A DNA stretch of 64,000 nucleotides from Bemisia tabaci. Lineage: Eukaryota; Arthropoda; Insecta; Hemiptera; Aleyrodidae. Of this stretch, positions 4,138 to 44,008 are shown piece after piece. Within the stretch, counting starts at the first letter, position 1. Each line of letters opens with the position of its first letter. The stretch spans positions 72,349,660 through 72,413,659 of the forward strand of contig NC_092793.1 in assembly GCF_918797505.1 (NCBI RefSeq), written 5' to 3'. A program made the translations under genes and the position numbers. The notes below the pieces were generated by a model. It was not told where the DNA came from. It saw only the letters and a program-made list of their open reading frames with translations, and made no database searches.

Positions 4138-5106
4138 GTTCAGATTGCACTCTCAGGCACCCGTCATTCAGTGTCAGTCAGTTTGAGTCTAAGTGCTTTA
4201 TTCAAAAAAGGCGGTCATGCGGCTAAGTTCTTCACAGCTTAAAAGCGCAAACTATACATTCCTCTCTTTTTTGTCCGTTTTTGTCTTCAAATTGTTTGCA
4301 AAGACCTACAGCGAAATGTGTCCTGGCGGGACGCGTTTTTTTTACTGGACCGTCAATTTTTATCGTGTTGCTGCGGGCGAGTAAATGACCAGTCGTTTCT
4401 CAGATGAAAGAACATAACTATAATGCAACATTGCAACTTTCCTCCTGATAATTTGTATTTTTACTTGGAAACTATTTAGAATTTCTCATTGACGCTCTTA
4501 CAGACTTCTCAGCTAATTATTTTTTAAGTCAGTGAAAATTTTGAAAGAAATATTTGTGTAATAAAAATTTGGAAACAAGTGAATTTTGTTTTAGTTGATT
4601 TTGCAACCTCAGAACGAAGATACGTGCTTTCAACTGAGAAATGACGAATTGGGTCTCTTTTTTGTTCTGAGTGTGTGATGGGAGGGGGAGGGGGCAATGC
4701 GTGGCAGGACTGATCACTTTGTCTGGACTTTGTAGCCAACTTTGTCGAAACTGGGGTAATTTTTGATTTCCAGGAATATCTTCCATTCTAAGTGATCCAA
4801 TATTTTTTTCTCCGCGTCAGGGGTGCAGATAGCATTTTTAAGAAAAAACAATTTCAAGACCTTTGGTTCGCCTTTCACGTACGAATGTCCGCTATGTTGC
4901 AATTATTACGTGATTTTCACAGCAATTTCGCAAAATGAATGTGTGCCATTTTCACTCGATTCTGCGGAAAATACGCGATTTTCATGTTGATGCGCGGCGG
5001 GCGGCGGCTTCCCGTTTTCGCACGCGACCAAAGGCGGGCCGCCTTTTTTCCACCCCTGCTCCGCTCTGCCACATTCGCATGCAGTCGGAAACTTCTTTGG
5101 TCCATA
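4138..5106. other. Intronic sequence, nothing recognised
   Basis: No repeat shared with the rest of the window and no convincing coding frame were seen. A GC-richer patch at about 4985-5090 has overlapping chance ORFs on both strands. Confidence 0.45.
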
Positions 5107-5357
5107 CTGCCGTGCTAAGGGAAAACGCCGTATGAGCCTTCCTGCGTTGCTATATTTTCTTCAATACGGAACATATTTATTTGAAAAATTGTGAATAATT
5201 TTCTTCGAATTTTTCAGAGAATTTTTTTAGCAATTTTTCTCAAATATCTGAAAATTTAGGGAAAGATACATATAATATTTCTCAGAAACATAGGTTTTAA
5301 CCGGGAAAATTTGGCGACTCTTGAATGTTCTCACGACGTCTTTCCGTAGCACGGCAG
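5107..5357. mobile_element. CTGCCGTG MITE, copy 1
   Basis: Starts CTGCCGTGCTAAGGGAAA and ends TCCGTAGCACGGCAG, with inverted ends continuing about 50 bp inward. Flanking 4-mers are CATA and CAAA, a diverged 4-bp target duplication. It belongs to the most abundant family in the window. Noncoding. Confidence 0.8.
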
Positions 5358-7552: not shown

Positions 7553-7805
7553 CTGTCGTGCTAAGGAAAAACGCCGTATGAACATTCGAATGTTGCCAAA
7601 TTGCTTCTCGGAAAATATTTATTTTTGAAGAAACTTATCAATATTTTTCATTGAAATTTTCAGACACTTAAGACCAAATTACGAGCAAAATTGTCTAAAA
7701 AATCGGAAGCATATTACGTATCAATTTTCCCGGAAATTCTTGATTTCTCGGAGGAAACTTGGCAACGTCTGAAGGCTCATACGGCGTTCTTCCTTAGCAC
7801 AGTAG
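7553..7805. mobile_element. CTGCCGTG MITE, copy 2
   Basis: Begins CTGTCGTGCTAAGG and ends CCTTAGCACAGTAG, with the typical inner inverted parts ATTCGAATGTTGCCAAATT and TTGGCAACGTCTGAAGG. Flanks TGTC/TATC match at 3 of 4 bases. Confidence 0.75.
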
Positions 7806-8205
7806 TATCCGAGTCCGGGGTCGGGGCTTGCCGGGTGTCGCGGTCGCATGTCGCCGTGTCCGTCAGCCTCCGCGTGTGGCAGCGACGAGTCGGCCAAGCG
7901 TGGCCAATGTCCACATCCTTTTGGGCGGGAGCCTGGACGCTGCCTCCTCCTCCTCTGACAAAGTGCTCTGCACCCAGCGCCTTTTCCACTGCCACCCCTT
8001 TCCTATTTCCATATTGCCAACCGTTTAATTCTGTCGCTCGAGATGTTACGCCATGTCTTGCCTCCTGCTCCGAGCCCACTCTCCGACGCACGGTGGGCGC
8101 CGCGTCTCTGAAGCCACTGCGGCCTCACCCTACTCGAGAGAACAGTAAGGCAAGGTACCCACGTAGGGAGAGCATGGAGACGTCGTTAATTTTGAGGTTA
8201 GATCG
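7806..8205. other. GC-rich intronic stretch, no gene supported
   Basis: A 202-codon open frame runs from 7691 to 8299 on the + strand, but it starts inside a MITE and ends inside another repeat. Its product shows no recognisable domain, so it is treated as chance. Confidence 0.45.
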
Positions 8206-13667: not shown

Positions 13668-13920
13668 CTGCCGTGCTAAGTAAAAACGCCGTATGAGCCT
13701 TCAGGCATTGCCAAATTTCTCCTGGCAAATCACTAATTTTCAGGAAAATTGTTGAATATTTGTCTACCAATTTCTTTGATAATTTTGCCTGTAATTTGAT
13801 CTAAAACTTCTGAAACTTTCAAGGAAAAATATTCAACATTTTTCTCGAAAATGAACATTATATCGAAGGAAATTTGGCAACTCTCGAATGTTCATACGGC
13901 GTTCTTCCTTAGCACGGCAG
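13668..13920. mobile_element. CTGCCGTG MITE, copy 4, perfect 4-bp TSD
   Basis: CTGCCGTGCTAAGTAAAAAC at the left and TTCTTCCTTAGCACGGCAG at the right, flanked on both sides by CATA (13664-13667 and 13921-13924). 253 bp, noncoding. A good reference copy for the family. Confidence 0.88.
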
Positions 13921-14074
13921 CATAGCCCGCCACAACCGCCTCTCCCCCTTTCCCTCCACCCTCCTAACTGTTTTAATTTCTTGTTTTGGGCACACCGCAC
14001 CGTGAACTGCCTTGTCTTACATTTAAGCGCATGATCGTAAGAGAAAATCACGGATTAGTTTTCTGCTGTATACT

Positions 14075-32500: not shown

Positions 32501-32823
32501 CCAGTGACGTCAGCGGCGACGACGAGAGCGATCTCGAGGAGCTACGCGGCTACGCGGTCCACAACGCTCTTTTCACATGTCTACGGCTCATGAGTTAGCA
32601 TACATTTGGCGCCTAGTTCCGTTTAATTCAATGTAAAATCCCGCTTTTCCATTTCCTCAGAAGGAATCTCGCCCACTTTTACATTGTTTCCTATGCAGCT
32701 CACCACGAGCACACCTCATCTTTCCTACGCGTCTCTAGGTCCGTTTAGCAAGGATAGCGTGAGCACACAACTTCGGAGGGTGTGCGCAAAAATGGAGCAC
32801 ATTTTGATCGATACGCATAAAAA
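29562..32823. other. Intronic sequence; possible decayed element at 29700-30560
   Basis: TACACGGAAAAAAGTG at about 29701 resembles the fold-back termini at 8306. Near 30490-30560 there are GCGTTACAAAGGGG-like words. A 176-codon minus-strand frame (29989-30519) is the second-longest frame in the window but shows no family I recognise. From 30560 to 32823 nothing was recognised. Confidence 0.4.
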
Positions 32824-33773
32824 CCCTGGTAAAAATTGGCGATAAGAGCTGCGTTTCAAAATACCATAGGAATTCTTATAGCCGGCTAAAGGGCTACAGA
32901 AAATCATATAGCTGGCTGTAGAATGCGGAGAAAATCATACGGCCGGGCTATACGAAGCGATAAAAAATTATGCAGCCGGGCTACAGTTCCTATAGCCGGG
33001 CTTTACACTTTATCGCCTGGCTGTTGCTTTTTCGCCATCGATTATAAAAGGCTATAAGAAATTGTGTAGAAATTCGTGTGCTTTGGAAATCATCAAGTTT
33101 AATACGGAACCACCTTAATATTTACAAAACACACATTATATTTTCCTTTAATACATATGTTTTTGTCATCAATTAAAATGAGAATAATCCATACAGGATG
33201 TGCAAACATTTCAAAATCATGACTTGAATAACGCTGGCTCCGCCAGATTAAATATTAGAACCTAACACAAAGCGGAGCGGCAACGCACTGGCGCCTACAA
33301 ACCTAACAGGGATACTTCACGCATTGCGCAACGCGTGAAGTATCCCTGTTAGGTTTGTAGGCGCCAATGCGCGTTTCGCGCTGGCTGCCCGTCTGCCGCA
33401 CCGCAGCGTACCACGGCACTTGAAGAAACTATTTCACACCAGAGGTATTGCACAGTATCATACGAAACTGAAGGCGCTCTAATATATTAGGAATGGCAGG
33501 CATCCATCAAAAGCACGGAGCTTTCCTCGCAAAATAAATCAAGATACTACGGCCGAAAAAGAGAGCAGTGGTCCAAAAATTCACTAAGTCCTAGCATCCG
33601 TAATTAGTGACGTTTTGCCTACACTTTATCGCCTGACTTTGAGTTGCTTAATTCGGCTATAAAAGGCTATAAGAAATCGTGTAGCCGGCTATAGAAGCTA
33701 TTGGAAATATTACAGCCGGCCGTAGGTCTATGGTATTTTGTAACACAGATTCTACTGCCAATTTTTACCAGGA
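32824..33773. mobile_element. 0.95-kb element with CCCTGGTAAAAATTGGC ends, copy A
   Basis: Left CCCTGGTAAAAATTGGCG and right TGCCAATTTTTACCAGG are inverted. Both arms are dense in TATAGCCGGCTA-like words, spaced irregularly. The core carries a 76-bp palindrome. Copy B (41892-42873) lies in opposite orientation, judged by comparing the sequence next to each terminus. No ORF. Confidence 0.88.
33290..33365. repeat. 76-bp palindrome, copy A
   Basis: Starts GGCGCCTACAAACCTAACAG and ends CTGTTAGGTTTGTAGGCGCC. The two 38-bp halves are inverse except for one mismatched pair at the middle (GCATTGCG against CAACGCG). It would form a near-perfect hairpin. Confidence 0.95.
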
Positions 33774-34493: not shown

Positions 34494-34745
34494 CTGCCGT
34501 GCTAAGGATAAACGTCGTATGAACATTCGAGAGTTGCCTAATTTCCCTCGATAGAATGTTTATTTTTGAGGAAAGCTATGAACATTTTTCCTTGAAATTT
34601 TCGGGAGCTTTAGGTGAAATTGCGAACACAATTATCTGAAAAATTAGAGGAAAAATATTTACTAATGTTACCGAAAATTCGTGATTATCCCAGGAAATTT
34701 GGCAACGCCTGAATGTTCTTATGGCGTTTTTCCTTTGGACGGCAG
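34494..34745. mobile_element. CTGCCGTG MITE, copy 9, perfect 4-bp TSD
   Basis: CTGCCGTGCTAAGGATAAAC at the left and TTTTTCCTTTGGACGGCAG at the right, flanked by AACT (34490-34493, 34746-34749). Interior matches copy 7 closely (TTTATTTTTGAGGAAAGCTA). Confidence 0.88.
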
Positions 34746-37370
34746 AACTGATAACGGGCCAAGCTGATAATGTCCATTCGGGGGTCAAGGTCGAAGCGCG
34801 GCCCAGCTTTCCCGCTTTGCACCTCTCCCGTGCGCGGTGTCGATGTCTCAGCGCCTCGTCCTCGTAGCAGTCGTAGCCGTTATTGCACCCTCTCCTCCGG
34901 TCTAGCGCCACGCACCGCCATGTTGCCATGTCTCCTCATAAATTGAACATTTTCACGAGAGGGGCATTGTCACGGCCACATGTATGAAGCGTATTTTCGT
35001 TGATGATTGGTTGAGTCAAAAAGCCGCGATAATGGCGGCGAGGTCATAATCGGGTCGAAAAACATTTGAGGCTCGACTTTCGAAATGGATGCAGTTCGGA
35101 TGCCATCATCTTCATCAGGTCATTTCCAAACCCTACGTAGGATTATATTTTGGCCCCAACGTTTGCAAGAATTTCCTCCTCTGTCTGGTGAGTCCGCGAC
35201 GTTGGTCCGAAAAATTATGATCGCGTCAAAATAAAATACAACATCCTCTGATCCACCCCTTTTGGCTCGACGTATCATCAACGAAAATACGTTTTTGGTG
35301 GCAGGTATGGACCATGAAAAGTTGTCAAAGTCTACCGCAAGGATGTAGTACGGATCCACTGAAAAATCATTAATTTTGAAAATGCGAAGAATAGTATTTA
35401 TCAATCGCGGAAAATGTAAGGATTTTTCATACAAAAAATATGAAAATTCGAGATTCTCGTGATGAACTTAGAGAGAGAGCCTTGAGGGTATGCAATTTTT
35501 ATCTTGATTTATCTCATCACGAAACAGTTAGATTCTAAGTATGTATATCAGTTCATTTGTCTAGCATTCACACGTCAGAATTTGATATGCGTTTTTGGTA
35601 AAGAAAAAGTGGGGAAAAAGGCAACCAAAAAGCAAGAATAATGCATGAAAGAGAGTCGAATACTTTATTTTTTTCTCTGAGTACTCCCTTGTTCTACCTC
35701 TCTTTCTCTCTCTTTATCCGGTGATGTTCTGCAATTAGCCAAGTCAAGATACCTAATTTACATTTGTGCAACTCGAGAATTCGTTTAATTCTACCTCAAC
35801 TTGACGACACTGAGCGGCTATTCGCGCGATTAATCGCCGTTAGAGCGTCGCCAATGTGTTTTAATTTTAAGGCCCACCCCCACCCATATGTTGCCTGCTT
35901 TCTTATCCAATACAATTTATTTTTCATCAAGTACATCATACCTGTATGATCGACATATTCGAGCGAGCAGGCAAGTCTTCCTTCCATATCACCCATGTCG
36001 AACGTTGCTTCAGCCACGAAAATTGTTCGGAAGCCCTCTATTTAGGTGATTAGAGAAATGAAGGGTGAGAGAAGCAAGTCTGAGAACGGATTGTAGCGTA
36101 CTGCCGTATAGGGTTCAGGGTCTTCAGTCAAGGCCGAATTTCTAACTCAGTTCACAGTCGCTACACCTCTGTGTCTTGCATTGGTCGTGATTTTGTGGCA
36201 ACAGTACCTAACCACGTACACCCTGATTTATTATGATGCAATTATAATTAAGTATTTGGGCCACAAAAGCTTAGGAGCAATTTATTGAAATCGGCCGTAA
36301 AAATCCATATTGACTCTTGAAGGAACATATCTTTTAGCTGTTGCCCTTTTATGGGAAATGAAACCCGAAAGAGCGAAATTCAAAAGGGCTTGAGGCGTGT
36401 AAGCGTAAGCGGCTCGGGGCACAATCGTCTTAAATAGACTAATATAATTTTGGAGAGCGTAATTTCTTTCATACCTGAAAAACTAGTGTAAATTGTTTGC
36501 AAAGGTAGTTGAATCAGTAATTAAATATGCACAGGTCATGAGAATCCGACTGATTTTATATCCAAAGTTGAATATTTCATGTAATTTTTAATCTGTGGAT
36601 GTAATAGTCATTAATTTTTTCTCGGTCAGGATTCCCCATTATTTTTTGTCAACAGACAAGGTGTAACTATAATTACTTTTGCAGTGAATAACATTCCGAT
36701 AAAAGCCAATAGCTTGACTTGAAAACTGTGTGGCTGGGATCCTGAGACCCGTAAGAACACATGCATAACAGGATCCATCCATGCCACTATGCAGAAAGTT
36801 TCTTCTGATCTAAATACGTCTATTCACTGTTAGTTAGTTTGTAACAGGAATTGTAGTGGTTCTGTTTGATCATTACCACCCTTGCCATTTAAGACACTAT
36901 CAAACTATCAGGTTTCTGTGTGGCGGCAATGGTCGCGCGTATATGAAAATGAGGTTTTGAAATTCCTGAAAAAAATTCCTGAATGGCTTTTCTTCACAGA
37001 GCAACTTTTTCCATGCTTCTTTGACACATATTTCCTCTCTGCTTTTAACACCTAAAGTACACTCTGCAGCTTTGAACACCTGCTTGGCAGTCGTCTGTGG
37101 CAAAAAACCACGATAAACTTCATATCATACCTTATTTTTTCCCTCTCCCTCCGTCGCAAGCTTGTATCCAACGGTCCGTCTTAAAAATGAAGAATTCAAG
37201 TGTAGAAGTATTCTTAGGCGGTATGAAAAAAGAAGCCTCAACATTCATAAATAATAAATCTGTTATTTGTTTCAAAATATGTATTTTATTTCTCTCATTT
37301 TTACTTTTTTCCACCTCGTGATCACCGATTTGTTTTAGATGCATGAGTCTCAATCCACTGGTTTTTTTTC
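34746..37370. other. Intronic sequence; one decayed hairpin repeat
   Basis: Near 36735-36835, CCTGAGACCCGTAAGAACAC and ATAACAGGATCC resemble the hairpin at 48436-48559. Otherwise nothing was recognised up to the exon. Confidence 0.45.
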
Positions 37371-37380
37371 TCTGTTTCAG

Positions 37381-37497
37381 TTTAATTTCGTAGGACGGAT
37401 ATTAGGACCAAGAGGAATGACTGCAAAACAGTTGGAACTCGAAACAGGTTGTAAAATAATGGTCCGAGGCAAAGGCTCGATGCGAGATAAGAAAAAG
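37381..37497 (+). CDS. how: how/quaking exon: KH domain core
   Basis: This 117-bp exon encodes 39 codons in phase 0 at both ends. It starts [19 protein letters not shown] and ends [10 protein letters not shown]. This is the KH core, with the GXXG RNA-contact loop seen as GPRG and the strand KIMVRGKGS after it. It follows HPE from the 11286-11419 exon and precedes the [13 protein letters not shown] exon at 56376 without a frame change. Donor GTAAGC and acceptor TTTCAG are canonical. Nearly every residue fits the family. The exon stands alone between 26.0-kb and 18.9-kb introns, unusual isolation for the essential core of the domain. Confidence 0.97.
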
Positions 37498-38519
37498 GTA
37501 AGCTTTTCTCATTTCCTTGTCCTCTTTTCTCAAAAGAATATGAGGTAGCTTTTCAAACATGACAAACAAATTTTTACAGTCTCTTTTTTGAAAATTCTAC
37601 ATTTAACCACTATCTGGCTGCACTTTGCGCTTGCTTATCCATCAAACCATTGAACCTCATCAGTATGGCGTCAACAATCTATATTCTCATATTATTACAC
37701 CCAATTCAAATCGATAAATTCCGTAAAAAAATAACATTTAATAAAAACTATTACCGACGTTAGGGTGTGCCTTATTTTTGAGTTTTGCGAAAATCAAGTT
37801 GGTCAACCCCTAAAAAGTTTCTATGTAGTCTCTAAATGAACCCCCTAAAAGGAAAAAATTTTAAAAAAATTTTAACCCGTGCCTCAAAGGGCCTAAAGGG
37901 CCTAAACCCAAAATTCAAAAAATTTGGCAAGCGACACATCAATTCTGAAGGAAAATGGCAAGTTACGGCCCTTGTAGGGCAGAAATTTTGTCCGTTTTGC
38001 CGTATCTTGAAGCGTAAGATCACAAACGGCCCAATGACGACGTGAGGCTATGGGCTGGCGGGGCGCGCCGCGGCCGGCCCGCCGCTGAGCGTGCGCGCGC
38101 GGCAGGGTTGCGCATCGCCGCTTTACACCGGCGTAGAGGAACGAACGGTGGGGTGGGAGGGGGATATCCGGTGGAAAAGCATCCACATTTTCTATCCATA
38201 ATGAAAATGCATTATACTTTTTCAATATAGATGAGGAAATATGAGCCATACAAGGAAGTGATGAAAAGAGTGACAAATACATATATAGTTTGTACGGTTA
38301 GGGGTGTAAGTGGGGAAAATTTGCCGTAACTACAGAACAGCCCTGAAAATCTCCGGGAAATAAAAGCTGCTATTGATGAGAGGTTTGCATGAGAGGTTTA
38401 ATTAAGGACTAATTAAAAAGATAGGTGCGATGTTGTCGAATCGTAAGCCCTTTACGCGATCAAAAGCGATTAGTGTAAATTTAATTGGAAAAGTTTAAGA
38501 AAAATTTGATGAAAGAAAA

Positions 38520-38990
38520 TTGCCCCAAATTCGGGAAGTGCTTAAAGTGTTTTTCTATCATGTGAAGTTTTCGCACATTAATGTCAATGGCGGTGCGTCG
38601 AAAACCTCTGATCTTGTAATTCCAATATGGAATGAAAAATGTAGAATCCCTGTGATACATAGTGTCCATGTTTTTAAAAATGTTTGCATTTTTATGAGGA
38701 GTGGAGGCGCGTATCAAAAAATACTAGCCGTCGATTGCTGGTTCAAGAGAATTTGGAGACTGATTTTACGGCAAAAATCGACATGTTATTCGACATTGCT
38801 TTATGCAATACTCTTGGTATCATGGAAAATGAAGAGGATAAAGCATTTTTAATTCTTCAGCGAAAACCTGAATGAGAATGCATAATATCCACAGTGAAGG
38901 ATACTATCCTTGCAGCAGAGGTGAGGAGAGCAGACAAGAAGAAACCTCGCGCCCAGGAGAGAGTTTCTCGACAGGAAAAATTCACGCTCG
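38520..38990 (+). pseudogene. Broken ORF inside the fold-back element
   Basis: Three frame-shifted pieces line up in order. First, FYHVKFSHINVNGGAS and SDLVIPIWNEKCRIPV (about 38548-38655, in the left arm). Second, after a shift near 38680, YEEWRRVSKNTSRR and TDFTAKIDMLFDIALCNTLG with EEDKAFLILQRKPE, ending in a stop near 38875. Third, another frame, STVKDTILAAEVRRADKKK. The order (a WNxxRIP motif, an EEW motif, an LFDIA motif, an EDKAFL motif) recalls a family of uncharacterised arthropod proteins, often multi-copy; I recognise the pattern but cannot name a function. The part in the arm is mirrored in the right arm. Confidence 0.6.
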
Positions 38991-39072
38991 CTTATGAGTC
39001 CCGCCAAACGGAAGAAAATAAGTTTTTTCATTTCCTATGAAATCACTGAAGGTTTGATACATCAATAAGACT

Positions 39073-39481
39073 TTGTTTACCCTCCTTTTCATTGGTGTAT
39101 TTGACGCGGCATCAATTAGAAAGTTTTATTCAATCGGTTCAATCTGGCTTCGCCAACTTACAGCTGATGTTGATTGCCTGGCCTCACCCAGGGGGCTAAA
39201 TGACACATTAGCCTCATTTACTCAAATCTTCCCCAGTAGCCGAGTGGTCAAGGGCATTGCCCACGGTTATAAAGAGTGGGGTTCAAATCCCAAATTAAAT
39301 CATATTTTTTCGAGAAACTAATATTACATTTTTGATTATAGCAAGTAACTGTGGCGGGGGGGGGGGGGGTGTTCAGTACCAGAAAATGTAAGTGGGTAAG
39401 CCATATTGAACCTCTCGTATAAAACCTTCTAATTGATGTCACGTTAAATGCGCTAATGAAAAGGAGGGTAAACATAGACAC
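39073..39481. repeat. Inner inverted repeat within the fold-back loop
   Basis: TTTACCCTCCTTTTCATTGG and GCATCAATTAGAAAGTTTTA near 39076-39136 pair with the inverse of 39395-39478 (CTTCTAATTGATGTC, AATGAAAAGGAGGGTAAAC). Arms are about 85 bp and diverged at roughly one base in seven by eye, so older than the outer arms. Confidence 0.75.
39231..39296 (+). repeat. tRNA-like segment (SINE head or tRNA relic)
   Basis: TAGCCGAGTGG (39237-39247) fits the Pol III A box and GGTTCAAATCC (39280-39290) fits the B box, the right order and close to the usual distance. A tRNA with a long variable arm, such as Ser or Leu, is suggested by the CCGAGTGGTCAAGG D-arm, but pairing of an acceptor stem was not seen. 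More likely a SINE head than a working tRNA. Confidence 0.6.
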
Positions 39482-40363
39482 TATGTATCACAGGGATTCT
39501 ACATTTTTCATTCCATATTGGAATTACTGTTACATTCATGTGCGAACACTTCACATGATAGAAAAACACTTTAAGCACTTCCCGAATTTGGGGCAATTTT
39601 CTTTCATCAAATTTTTCTTAAACTTTTCCAATTAAATTTACACTAATCGCTTTTGATCGCGTAAAGGGCTTACGATTCGACAACATCGCACCTATCTTTT
39701 TAATTAGTCCTTAATTAAACCTCTCATGCAAACCTCTCATCAATAGCAGCTTTTATTTCCCGGAGATTTTCAGGGCTGTTCTGTAGTTACGGCAAATTTT
39801 CCCCACTTACACCCCTAACCGTACAAACTATATATGTATTTGTCACTCTTTTCATCACTTCCTTGTATGGCTCATATTTCCTCATCTATATTGAAAAAGT
39901 ATAATGCATTTTCATTATGGATAGAAAATGTGGATGCTTTTCCACCGGATATCCCCCTCCCACCCCACCGTTCGTTCCTCTACGCCGGTGTAAAGCGGCG
40001 ATGCGCAACCCTGCCGCGCGCGCACGCTCAGCGGCGGGCCGGCCGCGGCGCGCCCCGCCAGCCCATAGCCTCACGTCGTCATTGGGCCGTTTGTGACCTT
40101 ACGCTTCAAGATACGGCAAAACGGACAAAATTTCTGCCCTACAAGGGCCGTAACTTGCCATTTTCCTTCAGAATTGATGTGTCGCTTGCCAAAATTTTTG
40201 AATTTTGGGTTTAGGCCCTTTAGGCCCTTTGAGGCACGGGTTAAAATTTTTTTAAAATTTTTTCCTTTTAGGGGGTTCATTTAGAGACTACATAGAAACT
40301 TTTTAGGGGTTGACCAACTTGATTTTCGCAAAACTCAAAAATAAGGCACACCCTAACCGACGT

Positions 40364-41891
40364 CCTTATTCTTCCATACTTTTAATAAAAAAATATCACA
40401 CCCTCATTAGGAGATCGAAATCATTATGTAGCTCCTGCGCACCAATTTATAAATAATCAACCTCCATTAGCACAAAATTGAAGTGATTTCATTCAAATTT
40501 TATTTCTGTTGGTGAAATTCGAGCTCTCCGACTTGACTTTGCAAGTGACATGTGTTGGTGAAATTTTTTTCGTTAGTCTCTATTTGCGGCTAAATCAATG
40601 CCTCCTCTGTTAACTTGTATCATGTCACAAAGTTTAATTCAATTTTCGCGTTAGAAAGTGGCGAAAAAACTGTAACGTTGTTGTTCAGTCGCTCCGCTCT
40701 CATTCGTTCCCCTCCCTTCCTCCTCCCCCGTTCATTTCCACGCGAAAAACGGACGCGCGAGCAAATAATTGTCGCTGACGCCGAGTGCCAAAATATTTTT
40801 GTTATAAACCTAATTTTAAAAATTAAAAATAAATACTAGCTCGCGAAGGGAACGAGGGCTCTGACCCGGAAGTGGCCCGTCCCGAAAGACGGCCTAAATT
40901 TCCCTTCGGAGGCCCCGTCGACGCGCGACCCGCGACGAGCCCAGTTTGCGGTCGTCAAATAAAAGTATCTCGTTCGGAGCACAGCTCGGATTTAAATGTA
41001 ATAATTCACCGGCCGAATAGCAGAAGGGAAGATGTCCTATAAAATTCAACGCACAGGCGTCATCTCAAATATGACTTGAGTGGACATGGCACAGGTCGAG
41101 CAGGGTCGCTTATTGCGGGGTGTCTGCAGGTCTAAAAAACCGGGTAGGAATCTCATCAGGTTTGGAAAGTAAGGGAACAGAAGAAAAATAATTCGATGAA
41201 GAGTTGCAGTTCTAGTACATGGAGAGATTGACACCTGGAGAAAAAAATCTCGTGTTTCCGTCATTTGCAGTGAATTTAATGTCGAAAATTGTTCATTTTC
41301 AGTTTTGAGAGTCAGCATAAAAAGCTAGGCATTTTGATTATTTTGGCCAAGGAAAATCCGGAAAATGTGGGAATAATTTTAAATCTAGGAGAGCACCTAA
41401 AGATTGAAAGTGGAACTCAACAATTTTTCATAGATTGAAATCTGGGCAACAAAAGTTTTTACGTACGCATACACTTTCCGCGAAAAGAAAGAAAGAAAAA
41501 AAAAACAAAACAAAACAGGAGACTGCAAAAATCGTGGAAAATGTTTGAATTATGTCAGTAAAGTGGAGGAGGTATCGAATTTTTCAAGTGTATGCAATTT
41601 TAAGAACTTTCAGGAGAACAGTAGCAGAAATGTTTTCAAAAATTGTACAAATGAGGTTAAAAGTATATTTAAGTATTCTGGAGATAAAGTCAACTTTTAA
41701 AGTTTCACCCTCCAATTTCTACGAGCATCCAAAATTAACTTTTTCTTTATGGACAACCTCCTTATTTGTCAAAGGTGTTTTTATTTAGGAAAAAAAAAGT
41801 GTAGATTTTTTTTATCTTTTTGTCTTTATAAATACGCATTTGCTAATGGAGAGATTTTACATCTAATCGGTTGTTTCTCATATCCTTGTTT
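40364..41891. other. Intronic sequence, nothing recognised
   Basis: A GC-rich segment at about 40840-40960 and an A-rich run at about 41487-41518. No gene or repeat ends seen. Confidence 0.45.
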
Positions 41892-42502
41892 CCCTGGTAA
41901 AAATTGGCAGTAGAATGTGTGTTCCAAAATACTATGGACCTAAAGCCGGCTGTAAGATTTCCAATAGCTTCTGTAGCCGGCTGTACGATTTCTTATAGCC
42001 TTTTATTGCCGATGGCGATTAAGAAACAGCCAGACGATAAAGTTTATGCTAAACGTTACTAAATACGGATACTAGGACTTAGTTAGTTTTTGGACTACCG
42101 CTCTCTTTTTGTGCCGTAGTATCTTGATTTATTTTGCAAGGAAAGCTCTGTACATTTGAAGGATGACTGTCATTCTTAATATGTTGGAGAGCCTTCAATT
42201 TCTTATGATATTGTGCAATACCTCTGGTGTGAAACAGTTGCTCCAGACGCCGTGGCACGCTGCGGCGGCGCGGCGGGCGGGCAGAGAGCGCGAAACGAGC
42301 ATTGGCGCCTACAAACCTAACAGGGATACTTCACGCATTGCGCAATGCGTGAAGTATCCCTGTTAGGTTTGTAGGCGCCAGTGCGTCGCCGCTCCGCTTT
42401 GTGTTAGGCTCTTATATTTAGTCTCGCGGAGTCAGCGTTTTTCAACTCATGATTTTGAAATGTTTGCACACTCTGTATGGACTATTCTGATTTTAATTGA
42501 TG

Positions 42503-42547
<45 letters not shown>

Positions 42548-42873
42548 AAAAAAAAATTATGTTTTAAGGAAAATATAATGTGTGTTCTGTAAATATTAAG
42601 GTAGTTCCGTATCAAACTTAATGATTTCCAAAGCACACGAATTTCTACACAATTTCTTATAGCCTTTTATAGCCCATGGCGATAAAGGGTAAAGCCCGGC
42701 AATAGGAACTATAGCCCGACTGTATACTTTTTTATAGCTTCGTATAGCCCGGCTATATGATTCGCTCCGCTTTCTACAGCCAGCTATATGATTTTCAATA
42801 GCCATCTTTAGTCGGCTATAAGAACTCCTATGGTATTTTGAAACGCAGCTCCTATCGCCAATTTTTACCAGGG
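41892..42873. mobile_element. 0.95-kb element with CCCTGGTAAAAATTGGC ends, copy B, inverted
   Basis: CCCTGGTAAAAATTGGCAG at the left and GCCAATTTTTACCAGGG at the right. Its left inner sequence matches the right inner sequence of copy A, so it is inverted. It carries the same GC-rich core and palindrome, and a 42-bp poly-A run at 42503-42544 near its right third. No clear target duplication. Confidence 0.88.
42304..42379. repeat. 76-bp perfect palindrome, copy B
   Basis: Halves GGCGCCTACAAACCTAACAG and its inverse meet at GCATTGCGCAATGC. No mismatch was seen across 76 bp. It is flanked by CGCTGCGGCGGCGCGGC-type sequence on the left. Confidence 0.95.
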
Positions 42874-44008
42874 TTCGTAAGCAGCCCAAAAGTTTTCTAA
42901 TAATAGCAAACAAAGAGATTCCACCTGTTCGTCAAATCTGGTCAAGTTTTCATTGAGTCACCTCGGAGGTAGTATATTAGGCAGAAAAAATAAAAACAAA
43001 AATCTGCGTTATTTACTTTAAAACGCGGTTTCGCTCACGTGGTCCCCGGCGGTACCCCAAGCGCCACGCACACTTGAACAGTGTTATGTTTAAATAGATG
43101 AAATCGCGCTATCTAAGCATTTACACGGAACGTAATTTAGTCAGCTAAACCATGACGGATTTAATTATTACGCTTCGGCGCTGTCGTCATGGAACGTCAC
43201 ATCTTCGTATAGTCATCTTTTTCCGCTCCTTTTGATCTGTCTGATAGGGAAATTAATCGGTTGGAACTAGTCCAAGCTAAGGGTTCTTTACTGTACCATT
43301 TCAATGTTTGGATGCACGAAAGAGCTTATCTCAATTGCAAGGTCCCAACTTTGGTATCAACATTTCGACTCCTAGTTTACCCCCTTATAGTATTGCTATT
43401 TCAGATAGCGTTTTTAAACATTTTTAGTGATTATTATTGAGTAAAAATTCACTCGAAGTTTTGTGCATTGATTGTAAACAGCCGCCCGTGAGTAAAGTCA
43501 AGTATGGCAGGAGATCTACGACGTCGCGAACTGAGGCTCTGGTTTTTGCACATTACATTCATCATTGACGCACTGAAAAAAAAATTTAATGAGAATCATT
43601 CTGGAACTTACGAAGGGCACAATTTTAATAAAATTTAACTGATAGTCAGTAGAAACAGGCGAATTGATCATTTGCCGATGCAAAAAACCAAAAATATATA
43701 AGAAAGAATTCAATGATTTCGACATTTTTACAGTATGTATGAACACTTCCAAAACCTACACATTTTTTTATTTTGTATTTATAATTCTTAGTGGACAAAA
43801 ATCTCTGTAACACTTCGCAAGATTCTTTTTCTTAAGTTATTTTGTTGAATTTTTCTTGAGATTCATTAAAATTTTCATTTTTATGGTTCGATGATAAGGA
43901 CCTCTTTAAGCCTCCCTTAATCTCGATGTAAACCATATGAGGCCTCCTAAGTAATCGTACTGTTTAAGGAGCGGAAGGCTCTATCGCGTCCTACATTAGG
44001 CTACATTC
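42874..44008. other. Intronic sequence, nothing recognised
   Basis: No shared repeat and no gene supported. Confidence 0.45.

Follow-up and report, generated by a model that had tools for sequence, protein, structure and literature searches.

A young fold-back element with TAGGGTG ends in a Bemisia tabaci intron and its kinship to transposons with a transposase of probable hAT fold

An exon at positions 37381–37497 (+ strand) of the window, i.e. the whole 64-kb stretch of Bemisia tabaci DNA that was analysed, ends at a GT, and by eye its translation looks like part of a KH domain. The gene carrying this exon is presumably how/quaking. A fold-back element begins 263 bp past the exon, and both of its arms are inside one intron. 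Table 1 lists the parts of the element.

Table 1. Features of the fold-back element in the window.
Feature	Position	Strand	Remarks
Target-site duplication, left copy	37753..37760	.	ACCGACGT
Whole fold-back element	37761..40355	.	begins TAGGGTGTGCC, ends GGCACACCCTA
Left arm	37761..38673	+	TAGGGTGTGCC end, subterminal region common with transposase-bearing relatives, and start of broken exon 1
Transposase exon 1 remnant, first frame	38499..38684	+	matches J exon, P0025
Transposase exon 1 remnant, second frame	38678..38875	+	stop at 38873-38875; matches P0025, P0119
Possible further exon 1 remnant	38876..39040	+	same frame past the stop; by position only
Loop	38674..39469	.	
Imperfect inner inverted repeat, left	39071..39155	.	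82% to 39393-39477
Imperfect inner inverted repeat, right	39393..39477	.	
Right arm	39470..40355	-	inverted copy of left arm minus 27 bp
Target-site duplication, right copy	40356..40363	.	ACCGACGT

An alignment of the left arm (37761–38673) with the reversed right arm (39470–40355) spans 913 columns, with 8 mismatches, a single 27-bp gap and a longest perfect run of 549. The repeat search gives the arms as an 826-nt pair at 100% (rounded) and a 58-nt pair at 98%. The ACCGACGT duplication directly abuts the TAGGGTGTGCC...GGCACACCCTA element at both edges. No further copy of the fold-back is found within the 64-kb window, Rfam shows no RNA family at gathering scores in positions 37000–41000, and ARAGORN shows no tRNA in the whole window. 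By eye, the loop has a tRNA-like A/B-box stretch at 39215–39300 (GTAGCCGAGTGG...GGGTTCAAATCCC), where ARAGORN makes no call.

The B. tabaci genome (610 Mb, 151 contigs) was searched with one arm. There are at least 41 matches, and 40 of the 41 span the whole 824-base arm at 99%–100% identity; 40 of 348 candidates were scored, and the copy number is therefore a lower bound. Twenty-four further loci were read (L027 and L029 being one locus). Perfect 8-bp duplications are found at 21 of these 24 copies. For 20 of the 21, up to 4 mismatches were allowed over the two 11-bp ends, and L033 was scored separately. When both 11-bp ends had to be exact, an 8-bp duplication was counted at 15 of the first 20 copies. 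Four of the 21 perfect duplications (L009, L016, L017, L023) sit in pure G or C runs, thus the duplication proves little at these loci. The duplication at L026 has one mismatch, and one end is missing at L027/L029 and at L031. A perfect duplication is also present at L047, which was found via the ORF search. Two older relatives, L049 and L051, show 83% and 88% identity over the first 1.2 kb; the duplication of L049 is 7 or 8 bp and that of L051 has one mismatch. The 300-bp flanks of L021 and L026 are alike at 99.67%, and these two copies are one insertion event or are in duplicated DNA. Joined together, the flanks of the two copies match a 112-bp stretch of L029 that has no interruption and represents a paralogous empty site.

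Long near-identical inverted arms are thus combined with mobility in this family, the architecture of a fold-back. An assembly fold is ruled out, because copies with duplications are present at many different sites and the two arms are not identical (8 mismatches and the 27-bp gap). An earlier note on this DNA had read the locus as a true insertion with near-identical 0.9-kb arms and an intact 8-bp duplication, and both points are borne out by the copies at different sites and by the ACCGACGT at both edges. It had named as contrary a finding of further copies whose flanks differ and carry no 8-bp duplication; what was found is that flanks differ between copies and duplications are present.

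Two variant copies may be mentioned. The copy at L022:301-3369 is 3069 bp in length; its arms reach 1224 bp at 99.6% and include more of exon 1. The copy at L020 has an imperfectly palindromic insert of ~255 bp within its right arm (L020:2357-2634).

Four copies (L009, L011, L012, L013) show zero substitutions among them over 2.6 kb in a 20-copy alignment, a comparison that ignores gaps (lengths 2595–2597). Their duplications differ: GGGGGGGG, CCCCCCAC, GGGGACTG and CCCTCCTC. The window copy is 0.19% away from these four, and the pairwise divergence in the 20 copies has a mean of 1.16% and a maximum of 2.89%. Judged by these sequences, the fold-back family is young and its source was very recently active.

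The two arms of a copy are closer to each other than to the arms of other copies. In 21 two-arm copies, arm differences average 0.40% within a copy vs. 0.89% between copies. Seven private variants are found in both arms of one copy vs. 26 in one arm only. The common form displays a 27-bp difference between its two arms, and in the short copies of 2566–2570 bp (L015, L018, L021, L026) both sides match the short arm, at 99.2%–99.7%. These data are modest evidence for occasional exchange between arms, and homogenisation appears modest as well.

Three larger elements in the genome have a transposase region. J (L050+L052) is 5188 bp in length, has TAGGGTGTCCC ends, a CCTGACGC duplication and 315-bp inverted repeats at 98.1%. 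K (L053+L054) measures 4874 bp and has a GTGAACAC duplication and 443-bp repeats at 93%, and M (L057+L063) is 4326 bp with a GAGGACGC duplication and 343-bp repeats at 99.4%. All three duplications are 8 bp. In J, the ORF of the fold-back is exon 1, with DDE-like frames behind it; a database gene model, P0001, links the end of J exon 1 to the core, and the J gene contains stops. K has long open frames, with exon 1 and an open core of 605 aa. The core matches of M have no stop; M exon 1 is in two overlapping frames and therefore looks frameshifted.

At the nt level, bases 1–33 of the fold-back are 88% identical to J and bases 93–248 about 69%–70%; the first 240 bp show 71% identity to M (246 columns). 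Comparison with K gives no significant DNA match (best E-value = 0.036). A transposase copy with ends near-identical to those of the fold-back was not found in these comparisons, the nearest being J (88% over 33 bp) and M (71% over 246 columns).

The broken ORF provides a second connection. The piece at 38499–38684 matches the J exon (49% over 53 aa) and residues 29–83 of protein P0025 (34%), and the piece at 38678–38875 matches P0025 residues 82–143 (42%) and P0119 residues 86–148 (46%). Where proteins have longer N-termini, this second piece matches further along. The stretch 38876–39040 shows no match at E ≤ 1e-3 in the comparison with full-length transposases, the first ORF piece gives no match at E ≤ 0.01 in the protein search, and Pfam shows nothing credible for the ORF pieces, cores and homologues. 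The second ORF piece yields 118 matches in the B. tabaci genome, many of them fold-backs of the same and related families; most of the distant ones (36%–49% identity) sit in longer frames. The fold-back and the larger elements are kin through the same transposase exon 1.

Of 8 further distant exon-1 loci, 6 have a TAGGGTG end upstream (none at L059 and L060), as do 16 of 20 core-search loci, some of which overlap (none at L069, L071, L075, L076). Four core loci (G000 C5:7004709, C7:46285164, C8:27000148 and C1:37485794) score equally and have frames of 881–945 aa open around the match; at each locus, a second matched stretch has one TAA. These may represent a recently spread relative.

A second fold-back family was found by the core search. 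L077–L081 are 2.7–3.4-kb elements with TAGGGTGGCC ends, and their end-to-end arms measure 816, 974, 626, 1200 and 1160 columns at 91%–99.7%. They are 93%–99% alike where compared with L078, and contain C-terminal core remnants (query 340–600). L078, the sole member compared with the window element, shows 85% identity to it at the terminal 26 bp and otherwise short weak matches. Duplications in this second group, with L073 (another core-bearing locus, outside L077–L081), are 8 bp in 2 of 6 (L078, L080) and 9 bp in 4 of 6 (L077, L079, L081, L073). Since this second family has similar ends, arm elongation seems to recur and to have occurred at least twice in the TAGGGTG group.

The target sites are rich in G+C. 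Twenty-five fold-back duplications, among them those of L021 and L026 with their shared flanks and the imperfect ones of L049 and L051, have a mean G+C of 74% vs. 41.6% for random 8-mers of the window; among 20,000 sets of 8-mers drawn at random from the window, the highest mean is 58.5%. When near-homopolymer sites are removed, the 19 that are left have 67% G+C (control maximum 61.8%). The 12 bases on each side show 50.5% G+C (25 sites including J and K) vs. 41.6% in the window, thus G+C-rich surroundings are favoured too. The target preference of Ac is nTnnnnAn, and none of the 25 fold-back sites fits it. The preference given for Buster, nnnTAnnn (PMC3517528), is fitted by 4 of 25.

For one homologue of the transposase found in the relatives, the predicted structure is best matched by Hermes, among the matches listed. 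On predicted structure, therefore, the transposase family of the relatives has a Hermes-like fold of the hAT type. The family displays conserved D-D-E, C-R-H-H and R-W. Key residues of Hermes are given as D180, D248, R318, W319 and E572 (PMC6027215), and candidate counterparts are D302, D367, R507, W508 and E702. The candidate D-D and D-E spacings are near those of Hermes; R-W is located later than in Hermes. A sequence search of solved structures gives nothing credible. Pfam searches give no hATC match: K (E ≤ 1) yields two weak unrelated families and nothing else, and 41 homologues (E ≤ 0.01) yield one unrelated family in one member; the domain may be absent or may be too divergent for the profile.

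Besides the Hermes-like predicted fold and the three candidate residue motifs, the group has in common with hAT elements (Hermes, Ac, Buster, Tip) the 8-bp duplications (the window copy, 21 of 24 others, and J, K and M) and ends beginning TAGGG, which we take to be hAT-like. Unlike hAT elements, the group has inverted repeats of 0.3–1.2 kb (315, 443 and 343 bp in J, K and M, ~0.9 kb in the window element and 0.63–1.2 kb in the second fold-back family) and G+C-rich targets, and includes some relatives with 9-bp duplications; Pfam gives it no credible match, to hATC or otherwise, although a divergent domain may escape the profile. Terminal inverted repeats of hAT elements are given as 5–27 bp (PMC3517528) or 10–25 bp (PMC3942097). 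The window element behaves like a hAT element, but because the short repeats and the hAT target preferences are not found here, it is not filed as a canonical hAT. The hAT likeness proposed in the earlier note gains a basis in the predicted fold, and arms of ~0.9 kb vs. 5–27 bp agree with its unusual fold-back class.

The window element is very probably a young, non-autonomous fold-back derived from a cut-and-paste group whose ends are TAGGGTG and whose DDE transposase has a hAT fold. In the process we propose, the transposase of a TAGGGTG-ended relative would recognise the fold-back ends in trans and excise the element, and the same hAT-fold transposase would make 8-bp staggered cuts at G+C-rich sites and insert it there. 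The long arms may be the product of an inverted duplication, in which the stretch from the left end into the first part of exon 1 was copied onto the right side, perhaps by template switching during gap repair. Exchange between the arms may since then have kept them partly alike.

The earlier note had instead taken the ORF to be captured. A captured ORF within an unusual canonical hAT element would account for an ORF that is broken and multi-copy (118 matches), yet this reading has scarcely any probability. The pieces align with the N-terminal region of full-length transposases, and the ORF is the first exon of J, K and M, by which capture is ruled out, and the inverted repeats of the relatives are 0.3–0.45 kb, not 5–27 bp. 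A regulatory role at this site, in which transcription of the intron would give a hairpin RNA feeding siRNA or piRNA, is hardly more credible. Both arms are in a single intron, and the predicted MFE of the element transcript is −1953 kcal/mol, a value that says only that the arms pair; however, copies are present at many different G+C-rich sites, thus nothing marks the window site as special.

P-element targets are G+C-rich, and long arms with 8-bp duplications recall Galileo, so that the family might be moved by a P-superfamily transposase, with its hAT look coincidental; this is improbable to a high degree. Galileo, of the P superfamily in Drosophila, is described as having long TIRs, 7–8-bp duplications, many two-arm copies without a transposase, and transposase-bearing relatives (PMC4168063), all features comparable to those of the whitefly group. 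Its transposase is of the THAP/P type and its target consensus is GTATTAC (PMC4168063), in contrast to the Hermes-like predicted fold and G+C-rich targets of the whitefly group. In architecture, the window element is a fold-back most like Galileo, within a group that very probably moves by a hAT-fold transposase. Tm1, reportedly (by title alone) a Mutator/Foldback family of root-knot nematodes, is also a fold-back, but differs from the window family in its Mutator kinship.

It is conceivable, if somewhat doubtful, that the TAGGGTG group represents an undescribed insect, perhaps arthropod-wide, lineage with a hAT fold, in which long repeats and G+C-rich targets are the rule and fold-backs arise recurrently. 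The group was not recognised among the matches listed in literature on hAT fold-backs, long-TIR hAT elements and whitefly elements. On the predicted fold, a large group of insect proteins, nearly all unnamed or uncharacterized among the matches listed, gains a probable transposase function. These proteins are now connected with element ends, target sites and non-autonomous copies that have moved recently. Fold-back formation, known for relatives of P and Mutator, would be extended to a hAT-like fold. The near-identical copies let the growth and homogenisation of long arms be followed. They may also recombine with each other, by analogy with Galileo, copies of which are described as having recombined to make inversions (PMC4168063).

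Other repeats are present in the window. A second inverted pair (32822–33772 and 41893–42875, ~1 kb at 83%) flanks the element some kilobases off. A ~260-bp repeat family has ~10 copies in both orientations at ~69%–80%, e.g. at 5104–5357, 7553–7808, 13668–13923 and 34494–34745.
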